From NCBI GenBank assembly GCA_035533755.1, contig DATLTC010000067.1, forward strand, positions 1 to 64,000: a DNA stretch of 64,000 nt, written 5' to 3'. The stretch is from Gemmatimonadaceae bacterium. GTDB taxonomy: Bacteria > Gemmatimonadota > Gemmatimonadetes > Gemmatimonadales > Gemmatimonadaceae. Made by a program: the position numbers and the translations under genes. Positions 24,489 through 64,000 of the stretch are shown here, one piece after another. A model generated the notes under the pieces. That model worked only from the letters and a program-made list of their open reading frames with translations, had not been told where the DNA came from and ran no database searches. How positions within the stretch are numbered: position 1 is the first letter of the stretch; each line of letters opens with the position of its first letter.

Positions 24489-24663
24489 CCGGGTCCTCGG
24501 GACCAAGGGGGTACGCCAGCGGCTAAAGATATCCGATCCGGGACGCGATGCGCACCAGACTCTCGCCTTCCGGGCGCGCTCCGTCCAGATTTGAGAGCGG
24601 AATTCTTCGGGAGCGGCCCCAGCCGCGATCCCGAGGGTGTGTCGTCAATCCGTGCGAGGTTCG

Positions 24664-26802
24664 ATGCCCACGAAGTCGCCGTCCAAGTCCGCTGCCGCCG
24701 CGCCAGGCGCGGCCGTCAATCCCAACTTCGATTGGCGGAAGATCGCCTACCACACGCTGGTGTCGCGCGCCCTCGACGACGTCGAGGAGACGACGAACAA
24801 GAATCGCGCGTCGGTGCCCAAGGATCACCTGGTGCTCTACCAGTTCTCGGCGCGCGGGCACGACATGGCGCAGGCGATTCTGGGTTCGCTGCTCACGGGC
24901 ACGCACGATGCGGCGGGCGCGTACTACCGGTCGCGGCCGCTGTTGCTCTCGATGGGCCTGGGGATCGAGGACGCGCTGGCCAGTCCGCTGGGCCGCTCGG
25001 GCGGGTTCAGCGACGGCCGCGATATCGGGGTGGTGTGCAACATGCCGCGGCGCAGCGGGCCGATGGTGCTGCCGATGTCGGGCGACGTGGGCTCGCAGTA
25101 CACGCCCGCGGCGGGCTGGGCGCAGGCCATCACCTACCACCGCGACACGCTCAACGACCGATCGTACGCGGGATGTCTTAGCGTGGCCCTCGGGGGCGAA
25201 GGCTCGGTGGCGACCAACGGGTTCTGGTCGGCGCTGACGATGGCCACGACGCTCAACCTGCCGATGCTGTTCTACATCGAAGACAACGGGCTGGGCATCT
25301 CCGTGAAGGGGCAGATGCAGACGCCGGGCGGCGACATCGCGAAAAACCTGGCCTCGTTCGGCAATCTGTTCGTGCGCGACGGCGACGGCACCGACCCCGC
25401 CGAAGCATCACGGCTGCTCGAGACCGTGACGGACCATGTGCGCGCAGGCCGGGGTCCGGCGCTGATCCGGCTCACCGTGCCGCGGCTGTGCAGCCATTCC
25501 GGCCCCGACAATCAGAAGGGATATCGCACGGCGGCCGAGATCGCGGCCGACGCGGCGCGCGATCCGCTGCCGCGGCTGCGCGACTATCTCGTGCCGGCGG
25601 TGATGTCGGCCGGAGACTGGAGCGCGCTCGAAGCCGACGTCGCGCGCGACGTGGACCGGGCGCTGGCCGGGGCGCGGGCTCGTCCGGCGCCCGCGCCGGA
25701 GACGGTGAAGCGGTTCCTGTACGCCGAGGCGCATCGGGACGGCGACCCCGAGACCGTGGGCGGGCTGTCGGACGCCGATCTCGCCGCGCTTGGCGGATCG
25801 GACACGCCGTCCGCCGACGGCGACATGGTGCGGTTTGCCGAGGCGGTGCGGCGCACGCTCAAGGCCGAGATGGCGCGCAATCCCAAGGTGCTGGTGTTCG
25901 GTGAGGACGTGGGGGTGAAGGGCGGCGTGCACCTGGTGACCGAAGGGCTGCAGAAGGCATTCGGGGCCGATCGGGTGTTCGACACCAGCCTCTCCGAAGA
26001 AGGCATCGTGGGGCGGGCCGTGGGCATGGCGATGGCGGGGCTGATGCCGGTGGCGGAAATCCAGTTCCGCAAGTATGCGGATCCGGCCACGGAGCAGCTC
26101 AACAACTGCGGCACCATGCGGTGGCGCACGGCCAACCAGTTCGCGGCGCCGATCGTGGTGCGCATGCCGGGCGGATTCGGGAAGGACGTGGGCGACCCGT
26201 GGCACAGCCTGAGCGACGAGGTGCGGTTCGCGCACGCCATCGGGTGGCAACTGGCCATGCCGTCCAACGCCGCCGACGCGGTGGGGCTGTTGCGGTCGGC
26301 GATGCGCGGCCGGAACCCGACCATCTTCTTCGAGCATCGGTCGCTGCTGATGACGAGCGACGGCAGCGCGCACTATCCGGGCGATGACTACGTGCTCCCG
26401 TTCGGCAAGGCGAACCGGCTGCGCGCCGGGGAGCGGATCACGGTGGTGAGTTGGGGCGCGATGGCGCTGCGGTGCGTGGAGGCCGTGGACCGGCTGGGGG
26501 CCGGGGCGGGCGTGGACCTGTACGATCTGCGGACGATCGCGCCCTGGGACCGCGATGCCATATTGGAATCCGTAACGCGGACCGGCCGGTGCCTGATCGT
26601 GCACGAAGACACGATCACGGCGGGGTTCGGCGCCGAGATCGCGGCGACGGTGGCGCGTGAGGCGTTCTGGCATCTGGATGCGCCGGTGGACCGGCTGGCG
26701 GTGGACGACGTGCCGATGCCGTACCACCCGGTGCTGCTGGACGCGGTGCTGCCCAGTGTGGAGGGGATCGCGGCGCGGATCGAGGCATTGCTGGCGACGT
26801 AG
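24664..26802 (+). CDS. Fused E1 alpha-beta subunit of a branched-chain-type 2-oxoacid dehydrogenase
   Basis: From the ATG at 24664 (MPTKSPSKS) the protein has 712 residues; an earlier in-frame ATG at 24637 is less likely. Residues about 25-345 form the thiamine-diphosphate E1 alpha part (YRSRPLLLSMGLG, SGDVGSQYTPAAGWAQA, GGEGSVATNGFWSALTMAT and IEDNGLGISV). Residues about 390-712 form the E1 beta part (NPKVLVFGEDVGVKGGVH, FDTSLSEEGIVGRAVG and EIQFRKYADPA). Such enzymes decarboxylate branched-chain or aryl 2-oxoacids and pass the acyl group to E2. No E2 or E3 is in the window. Its position between the two halves of the paa genes suggests phenylpyruvate to phenylacetyl-CoA as a reaction; that is inference. 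Confidence 0.9.
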   Translation: MPTKSPSKSAAAAPGAAVNPNFDWRKIAYHTLVSRALDDVEETTNKNRASVPKDHLVLYQFSARGHDMAQAILGSLLTGTHDAAGAYYRSRPLLLSMGLGIEDALASPLGRSGGFSDGRDIGVVCNMPRRSGPMVLPMSGDVGSQYTPAAGWAQAITYHRDTLNDRSYAGCLSVALGGEGSVATNGFWSALTMATTLNLPMLFYIEDNGLGISVKGQMQTPGGDIAKNLASFGNLFVRDGDGTDPAEASRLLETVTDHVRAGRGPALIRLTVPRLCSHSGPDNQKGYRTAAEIAADAARDPLPRLRDYLVPAVMSAGDWSALEADVARDVDRALAGARARPAPAPETVKRFLYAEAHRDGDPETVGGLSDADLAALGGSDTPSADGDMVRFAEAVRRTLKAEMARNPKVLVFGEDVGVKGGVHLVTEGLQKAFGADRVFDTSLSEEGIVGRAVGMAMAGLMPVAEIQFRKYADPATEQLNNCGTMRWRTANQFAAPIVVRMPGGFGKDVGDPWHSLSDEVRFAHAIGWQLAMPSNAADAVGLLRSAMRGRNPTIFFEHRSLLMTSDGSAHYPGDDYVLPFGKANRLRAGERITVVSWGAMALRCVEAVDRLGAGAGVDLYDLRTIAPWDRDAILESVTRTGRCLIVHEDTITAGFGAEIAATVAREAFWHLDAPVDRLAVDDVPMPYHPVLLDAVLPSVEGIAARIEALLAT

Positions 26803-26826
26803 CGCGGCCGTGGCCGGACAGATCGC

Positions 26827-27050
26827 ACGGCAACGGCAACAGCCTTGGACCACGATGAGGCGGATTGGACGGATTCAACGGATACGGCAACAGCAACAGC
26901 CTCAACTGCCAAACCACTGGGGGAACTGCTCCGCCATCCAGATCTCGATGGCGGAGCGGTTCCCCCGATTAGTGCAGTTGCAGTTGCAGTTTGATCCGTG
27001 GATTCGCCCAATCCGTCTAGTCGTAGTTCAAGGCAGTTGCCGTTGCCGTT
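26827..27050. repeat. Large imperfect palindrome with a central near-perfect hairpin
   Basis: The outer left arm (26827-26883) and the reverse complement of the outer right arm (26994-27050) match at about 48 of 57 positions, with one 1-nt gap. Both start ACGGCAACGGCAAC and share CGGATTGG and ACGGAT. Further in, GGCAACAGCAACAG-type repeats again face each other. The core is a 20-bp stem (26919-26938 with 26947-26966, one G-T pair) around an 8-nt loop. The element fills the space between the converging E1 and paaD genes and no protein frame is supported. It could be a bidirectional terminator, a MITE-like element, or the scar of a rearrangement. Confidence 0.75.
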
Positions 27051-27059
27051 CGCAGAAAC

Positions 27060-27560
27060 TCAGAACGGCTTGAACTCGTCGAACGGCTGGCTGCAGGCGT
27101 TGCAGAAGTGGATGGCCTTGCACGCGGTGGACCCGAATTCGCTCCGGCGCTCGGTATTCGCCGATCCGCAGTACGGGCACGCCACGGGCGCCGCGCGCCG
27201 AGTGAGGGCGATCAACCCGCCCTGATCGGCGGGGCCCGGCGGAGCGATGCCGAACCGGCGGAGCTTCTCACGAGCCTCGGCGGGAATCCAGTCGCTGGTC
27301 CACGCCGGTGCGTACACCGTCTGGAACTCCACCGCGGTGATGCCGTGGCCGGCGAGCGCGCCGCGCATGTCCTCTTCCATGGTGTGCATGGCGGGACAGC
27401 CGGAATACGTGGGGGTGATGGTGATCTTCACGCCGGCGTCGCCCACGTCCACATCGCGGATGATGCCGAGTTCGACCACGCTGAGCACCGGCACCTCGGG
27501 GTCCATCACCGTGCCGAGGATGCGCAGGACGTCGTCGCGACCCGGACGCGCGGCGTTCAC
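27060..27560 (-). CDS. paaD: PaaD, maturation factor of the phenylacetyl-CoA epoxidase
   Basis: The 166-residue protein has an N-terminal MIP18/DUF59 domain (DPEVPVLSVVELGIIRDV, TPTYSGCPAMHTMEEDM) and a C-terminal zinc-ribbon-like Cys set (ACPYCGSANTERRS, then CKAIHFCNACSQPF). This two-part layout is typical of PaaD, which helps assemble the metal or Fe-S centre of the PaaABCE complex. The start is GTG at 27560, overlapping the paaC stop as GTGA. The C-terminus F-D-E-F-K-P-F is the usual PaaD end. The large palindrome begins 10 nt beyond the stop. In E. coli paaE normally follows; here it does not. Confidence 0.95.
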   Translation of the reverse strand: MNAARPGRDDVLRILGTVMDPEVPVLSVVELGIIRDVDVGDAGVKITITPTYSGCPAMHTMEEDMRGALAGHGITAVEFQTVYAPAWTSDWIPAEAREKLRRFGIAPPGPADQGGLIALTRRAAPVACPYCGSANTERRSEFGSTACKAIHFCNACSQPFDEFKPF

Positions 27561-39710: not shown

Positions 39711-39725
39711 TCTACGGATACGACA

Positions 39726-39810
39726 GTAGGACGGTAGGACGGTAGGACGGTCGTGGGTAACTGCGTTTCGCAGTCATCCGTCCGACCGTCCTACCCCCCT
39801 ACTGTCCTAC
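39726..39810. repeat. Long hairpin built from the 8-nt GGTAGGAC repeat
   Basis: Units AGTAGGAC, GGTAGGAC and GGTAGGAC at 39725-39748 end with GGTC. The reverse complement at 39783-39810 matches the 28-nt left arm at 25 of 28 positions. A small inner stem ACTGCG-TTT-CGCAGT (39760-39774) sits in the loop. The structure lies between the M28 peptidase gene's end and the aacS start on the minus strand. It may end the peptidase transcript, but its make-up from the dispersed repeat is unusual. Confidence 0.8.
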
Positions 39811-39841
39811 AATCGACCAGGCGCGCAGCTCCTGCCCTCGC

Positions 39842-63119: not shown

Positions 63120-64000
63120 ATGCGCAAGTGGAGCCGGCGGGACGTACTGAAAAGTGGCGTGATCGCCGCCGGCGGCGCGTTGCTCGGCGGCAAGGTGGGC
63201 CGGTTGGACGGAATGACGGTGGACGCCGATCCGCCGTTGTCGGTCTTGTCCTCCAACCCCCCTACCGCCCTACCGTCCTACCCCCCAAACACCCGCGACC
63301 GCCTGCTCCTCGACTTCGACTGGCGCTTTCACCTGGGGCACGCCAACGACCCAACGCAGGACTTCGGGTTCGGCGAGGGCGACGATGGCATCTTCGCCAA
63401 GACCGGCCGCATGTTCGCGCCGGCGCGCCCCAACTTCGACGCCAGCGCGTGGACCACCGTGGATCTGCCGCACGACTGGGCGGTGGAGCTGCCGTTCGTG
63501 GACGCGCCGACGCTCATGTCGCACGGGTTCAAGCCGCTCGGCCGCGACTACCCGGCCACGAGCATCGGATGGTATCGCAAGGTGTTCGCGATCCCGGCGG
63601 CCGACCAGGGGCGCCGGCTGTCGCTGGAGTTCGACGGCGTGTATCGCAACGCCATCGTCACGCTCAACGGGGCGTATCTCACCACCGCATTCAGCGGCTA
63701 CGCGCCGTTCCGCGTGGACATCACCGACTTCGCCAACGTCGGCGGCGACAACGTGCTCGTGGTGCGCGTGGACGCCACCGAGAACGAGGGCTGGTTCTAC
63801 GAGGGCGCGGGCATCTACCGGCACGTGTGGCTGGTGAAGACGCACCCGGTGCACGTGCCGCAGTGGGGCACGTACGTGACCAGCGACGTGAAGGGCGCGC
63901 GGGCGCGCGTGCGGCTGGAGACCGAGGTCGCCAACGAGAGCGACGCCGACGCGACCTGCCGCGTGGTGTCGCGCATCGTCGACGCGTCGGGCGCCGTGCG
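63120..64000 (+). CDS. Tat-exported GH2 beta-galactosidase-like protein, 5' part (cut by window edge)
   Basis: The ATG at 63120 opens MRKWSRRDVLKSGVIAAGG, a twin-arginine signal, and 293 codons remain open to the window edge. After a short Pro-rich linker come the GH2 sugar-binding domain features: LLLDFDWRFHLG, TTVDLPHDWAVE, ATSIGWYRKVF, LEFDGVYRNAIVTLNG and NEGWFYEGAGIYRHVWLV. The catalytic barrel lies beyond the edge. The linker (residues 47-56) is encoded by an array of the 8-nt repeat seen elsewhere. The product should act on beta-galactosides in the envelope or outside. Confidence 0.9.
   Translation, partial: MRKWSRRDVLKSGVIAAGGALLGGKVGRLDGMTVDADPPLSVLSSNPPTALPSYPPNTRDRLLLDFDWRFHLGHANDPTQDFGFGEGDDGIFAKTGRMFAPARPNFDASAWTTVDLPHDWAVELPFVDAPTLMSHGFKPLGRDYPATSIGWYRKVFAIPAADQGRRLSLEFDGVYRNAIVTLNGAYLTTAFSGYAPFRVDITDFANVGGDNVLVVRVDATENEGWFYEGAGIYRHVWLVKTHPVHVPQWGTYVTSDVKGARARVRLETEVANESDADATCRVVSRIVDASGAV
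63257..63286. repeat. 8-nt repeat array inside the GH2 coding sequence
   Basis: Three 8-nt units CCTACCGC, CCTACCGT and CCTACCCC at 63261-63284 are the complement of the GGTAGGAC-type unit and are flanked by C runs. They lie within codons 47-56 of the beta-galactosidase gene and encode a Pro/Thr/Ser linker just after the Tat signal. The unit length is not a multiple of three, so each copy is read in a different frame. Confidence 0.8.

Follow-up and report, generated by a model that had tools for sequence, protein, structure and literature searches.

An imperfect palindrome of 229 letters, which reads nearly identically on both strands, fills the spacer between two convergent stop codons at 26802 on the plus strand and 27060 on the minus strand (Table 1). 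It lies in a window of 64,000 nucleotides from the 103-contig draft GCA_035533755.1 (the source genome, G000), which was compared with the three congeners G001, G002 and G003. Gene contexts were determined by a home-made in-frame hexamer gene caller. The PaaD-like protein on the right has orthologs of 78-91% identity in the congeners, with that of G002 at 91%.

Table 1. Features at the convergent junction (positions within the window)
Feature	Position	Strand	Basis and remarks
E1-like gene, left convergent neighbour	24663..26802	+	ORF and hexamer gene calls; function as in the preliminary description
Full-length imperfect palindrome, type C element	26824..27052		Repeat search, fold and fold-back score
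Left outer arm: GGCAAC-type units, then GGCGGATTGGACGGATTCA	26824..26877		81% complementary, ungapped, to 26999-27052 (54 nt)
Left inner arm: ACGGATACGGCAACAGCAACAGC and following bases, opposite GCAGTTGCAGTTGCAG on the right	26878..26918		Fold
Core stem GGGGGAACTGCTCCGCCATCCAGA / TCTCGATGGCGGAGCGGTTCCCCC	26919..26966		Arms 26919-26942 and 26943-26966, 24 nt, 92%, no spacer
Right inner arm, GCAGTT units	26967..26998		Fold
Right outer arm, terminal GTTGCCGTTGCCGTTCG	26999..27052		Complementarity to left outer arm
PaaD-like gene, right convergent neighbour	27060..27560	-	166 aa; stop adjoins the element

The preliminary description, made from the sequence alone, had recognised a palindrome at 26827-27050, and it is real with slightly wider limits: it scores 87 as a fold-back, and none of 2,000 shuffles exceeded 21. 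Its outer arms, described as about 57 nt matching at roughly 84%, measure 54 nt and are 81% complementary without gaps. In the gapped fold-back of the whole element, 91 of the 108 paired columns are Watson-Crick pairs (84%). A core stem closes the centre as described, though it is longer than the 20 bp given, and the inner GGCAAC/GTTGCA tracts indeed face each other in the fold. Folding of both strands, which had been suggested as a check, gave -162.8 kcal/mol for the plus strand (shuffle mean -96.1, z = -12.3) and -154.1 kcal/mol for the minus strand (z = -10.7). The element is the longest inverted repeat within the 64-kb window, and only three palindromes in the first 1.04 Mb of the survey rank above it.

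No open reading frame is supported in the element, in agreement with the earlier reading, and no sigma-70-like site was seen there. Rfam returned no covariance-model match at E <= 1, and no T-tailed terminator hairpin (GC-rich hairpin plus T run) was found within 26600-27250. An assembly artefact or a chance inverted repeat is hardly credible as an explanation: palindromes are difficult to assemble and the source genome is a 103-contig draft, but the fold-back score lies far above the shuffles and related elements are present at orthologous sites of independent genomes.

A dispersed family of fold-back repeats

The fold-back survey, begun with 1.04 Mb and extended to 1.66 Mb of unmasked source-genome sequence, covered about half of the assembly, many small contigs being read as N. 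The longest palindromes in the surveyed 1.66 Mb belong to few families. Types A and C are full-length palindromes of 170-260 bp, with arms composed of GGAT-N5 and GCAAC-N units. Type A possesses GGATGCTCC-GGATTGGAC units, an outer motif GGGCATCMAGAAC and a core resembling GGGGGCTTCGGCGGGGAGATCT, and type C is the type of the window element. A second family, type B, consists of hairpins of about 85 bp with GTAGGACG units and was found at 39 places, 33 of them with a clear fold-back.

Second copies, whose presence the preliminary description had left to be checked, were found by DNA search: diverged full-length copies lie on contigs C68, C3 and C36 of the source genome, and a solo arm on C46. 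The core 17-mer GGAACTGCTCCGCCATC is perfect in the C68 copy and has one mismatch in the C3 copy, and copies have their full-length sequence in common, the core and the outer motif included. The rearrangement scar of the preliminary description, taken as a single event, is rejected in view of these copies, although arms do seem to rearrange with one another, to judge from the sequence comparisons below. Three elements of G001 are intermediate, with arms like those of type C but ends and core like those of type A. A profile of these three matches both type A and the window element (E 2e-4 in 1.66 Mb), while a profile from type A only reaches the window element at E 0.04, below significance. Since the intermediate profile matches both types, there is moderate support for placing types A and C in one putative superfamily.

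Pattern matches to type A are also abundant in another genus of the family, with 97 in G017, and C-like pattern matches are present in G021 and G108. At the G017 loci L346, L350 and L353 several type A matches form large palindromes, and G017 is the richest place for a search for a mobiliser. Three G021 loci (L355, L359 and L362), from another genus as well, carry arrays of units like AATCCGTG/CACGGATT that face each other and in part resemble type C arms.

Within the window, a type B hairpin (GTAGGACG units, core ACTGCG/CGCAGT) lies at 39721-39815 between two co-directional genes, and weaker type B matches were found at 63168-63306, overlapping a called gene start, and at 1319-1376, between divergent genes. 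Elsewhere in the source genome, a singleton palindrome of 156 bp with AGCT-based 7-nt units (L324 14516-14671, contig C10) is unlike types A to C. In the source genome (L273 2740-2900) and in G002 (L284), one and the same site carries a solo GTAGGACG array and, after it, 7-nt units of AACTGCG/AACTGCC. A scan of species genomes with a core 15-mer returned at least 117 scattered stretches; three with Gemmatimonadetes titles that were inspected are non-palindromic, and no family members were gained. A literature search by sequence strings yielded no relevant paper.

Turnover at orthologous sites and placement behind stop codons

The window junction is element-free in two congeners, with a spacer of about 35 bp in G002 and a short ordinary hairpin in G001, so the palindrome is polymorphic within the genus. 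The short spacer of G002 retains GCAACAGCAAC, which G001 does not have; because of this remnant, both a loss in G002 and a gain in the source lineage are possible. Presence and absence recur at other sites. At C57 an element is found in the source genome and G002, near-abutting stops in G003 and a short spacer in G001. At the L186 site the source genome has a short spacer and G001 a palindrome about 260 bp long. The C68 site carries a full C element in the source genome and only the right half in G002, where the left half was lost. The earlier proposal of a MITE-like element is thus supported by dispersed diverged copies, by presence and absence at orthologous sites and by the lack of a supported reading frame.

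Elements of different type may also occupy one site. At C45 the source genome has type A, G001 an A/C chimera, G003 a hairpin of ACTGCC-type 7-nt units and G002 a plain spacer of about 77 bp. At L367 of G003, orthologous to L244 2782-2969 of the source genome, a hairpin of ACTGCC-type 7-nt units stands where the source genome has a type A palindrome. At C26 a type A element in the source genome corresponds to C-type arms in G001, with a core partly in common, GGCGAACCGA-CTCTCCCC...GCCCCC. It had been suggested that the core was placed within an older inverted repeat; the C26 site displays the reverse, a partly conserved core with changed arms.

Slippage and template switching could also have enlarged an ordinary terminator hairpin at its site without insertion of a mobile element, and the likeness between sites would then be a convergence of simple units. 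The arms do consist of short tandem units, congeners have ordinary hairpins or other types of unit at the same sites, and template switching is able to create stems (PMC8794818). Such growth is nevertheless quite improbable, as the copies are alike over their full length, core and outer motif included, and the near-abutting stops of G003 at C57 leave no room for a seed hairpin.

Most elements lie within about 15 nt downstream of stop codons. The 43 intergenic elements comprise 25 in co-directional, 13 in convergent and 5 in divergent gaps, where element-free intergenic length predicts 24.0, 4.3 and 14.6, respectively (p = 8e-6; p = 0.02 for the same counts against the number of gaps). Convergent gaps are therefore enriched and divergent gaps depleted in elements. 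In co-directional gaps the upstream stop is the nearer gene boundary for 21 of 25 elements (p = 0.0009), with medians of 8 and 40 nt. The facing gene at C57 appears to run into the element and to terminate inside its arm. REPs are likewise found mostly in convergent or co-directional gaps, within 20 bp of 3' ends (PMC3733652).

A mobilising enzyme was sought with PF01797, the Y1/RAYT transposase family: none was found in any of the four genomes of the genus, which are drafts 80-98% complete, and positive controls were included. Flanking direct repeats are at chance level for target-site duplication in 11 elements, whose boundaries are fuzzy, and arm searches of the source assembly returned element places with no obvious autonomous partner. 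Insertion is consequently deduced from presence and absence. SbcD, considered as a candidate reason for the tolerance of palindromes, gave partial matches in three genomes and fell below the cut-off in the source genome.

Paired changes and exchange of arms

Compensatory changes in stems are usually taken as proof of a selected RNA. Covarying stem changes, proposed earlier as a check, were examined in 15 aligned A/C elements, in which 91.7% of cells are paired in a 21-pair consensus. Both sides of a pair are changed in 25 cells, more than in any of 500 shuffles (mean 8.6), and such double changes outnumber the single-sided wobble changes (10 cells). The covariation score is 0.267, compared with at most 0.060 when slid; these controls are indicative only, since the alignment tested also supplied the structure and its sequences are relatives of one another. 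Read in the sense direction of co-directional genes, the elements show 64 G.U against 50 A.C cells (binomial p 0.22, signed-rank p 0.049).

Similarity between the two arms of one element exceeds that of corresponding arms in different elements, with values of 0.75 vs 0.64 for type B, 0.74 vs 0.64 for type A and 0.71 vs 0.65 for type C. Three ortholog pairs from the source genome and G002 were further compared from outside to inside, where X denotes a column in which the left arm of the source genome matches the right arm of G002 and C a collinear one. The patterns are XXXXXXXXCCCCC, XXXCCXXCCCCC and CCCCXXXXXX, each resting on 10-13 informative columns from draft assemblies. The first and third pairs switch cleanly, which indicates a putative segment inversion with a breakpoint within the arms; an assembly error across inverted repeats is a possible alternative source of such differences in arm orientation. 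Because double changes occur without a significant G.U bias and left and right arms are exchanged between orthologs, the upkeep of pairing points to recombination or templated correction of arms at the DNA level, and not to selection on RNA alone. In known cases, a template switch from one inverted repeat to the other makes the arms uniform and inverts the spacer (PMC8604942), and such switching also preserves stems (PMC8794818).

A functional RNA hairpin in the first place, that is, a bidirectional terminator or a stabiliser of the mRNA 3' ends of the convergent pair with pairing selected in RNA, is unlikely. The element adjoins two convergent stop codons, its family is enriched at 3' ends, the fold is very stable, and the covariation and the borderline G.U excess (the signed-rank result) would fit as well. 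Against these stand the missing T-tail, the non-significant binomial test, the lack of an element at the same junction in G002 and G001, the C68 ortholog of G002 without its left half, and the fact that mobile REPs are placed likewise (PMC3733652). A specific structured RNA, one of the candidates of the preliminary description, is left unsupported by the G.U and A.C counts, the lack of an Rfam match and the lack of a T-tailed terminator; a hairpin at transcript ends is still allowed by the 3'-end position.

Segment 26824-27052 is probably a member of a dispersed repeat family of the REPIN/MITE kind, fold-back in structure and non-autonomous, which is situated behind stops and above all behind convergent ones. 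The repeat family, its presence and absence at orthologous sites, its adjacency to stops, the both-sided paired changes and the exchange of arm segments between orthologs are direct observations. Its position and structure would permit a terminator or mRNA-end role, but on balance the evidence favours a DNA-level repeat with copied and exchanged arms. Copies of the dispersed repeat would spread by enzymatic insertion and would persist at 3' ends, where harm is least. A hairpin or cruciform at an inserted copy may then provoke a replication template switch between the arms, or arm recombination, and such switching would homogenise and swap the arms and so keep the palindrome. If transcribed, a hairpin would form at both convergent mRNA ends and, as a plausible side effect, may shield them or aid the end of transcription.

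It is also possible, though doubtful, that DNA template switching or inversion maintains the palindromes and gives them new arms, with no dedicated transposase in the genus, the core staying while arms are replaced or exchanged in concert. This is suggested by type A in the source genome against type C in G001 at one site, and by the arms swapped between the source genome and G002.

Relation to known repeats

The family resembles the REP, REPIN and BIME elements, which are GTAG- or CGTC-tagged dispersed extragenic palindromes often in facing pairs (PMC3733652, PMC3116915), and shares their extragenic placement by 3' ends and their rarity between divergent genes. However, REP units measure 20-40 bp with an unpaired GTAG/CGTC end, whereas types A and C are untagged fold-backs of 170-260 bp whose arms consist of 6-9 nt units. 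The units of type B start with GTAG, as in GTAG-tagged REPs, but the GTAG lies inside the paired arms. Moreover, REPs and REPINs are mobilised by RAYTs, and no RAYT was found here in four genomes of the genus.

MITEs and the ERIC, RUP and BOX repeats are short, non-coding inverted-repeat sequences with insertion polymorphism (PMC2229807), like this family, which differs in target-site duplication at chance level, in the absence of a parent insertion sequence among our searches and in a concerted turnover of its arms. Quasipalindromes shaped by template switching display arm homogenisation and inversion of inner segments (PMC8604942, PMC8794818), as between the orthologs here, but they have been described for short single sites and not for a dispersed family of long palindromes. 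Against known REP- and MITE-type repeats, the best reading is a new large fold-back variant whose halves change together.

The STRR sequences of cyanobacteria are intergenic tandem units of a fixed length of about 7 nt. They form direct arrays, whereas the arrays here are facing, mirrored arms.

Many copies, orthologous sites and arm swaps found within one genus provide a way to tell selection on RNA from copying of arms at the DNA level. The existence of REP-like elements without a RAYT also bears on how such repeats spread.
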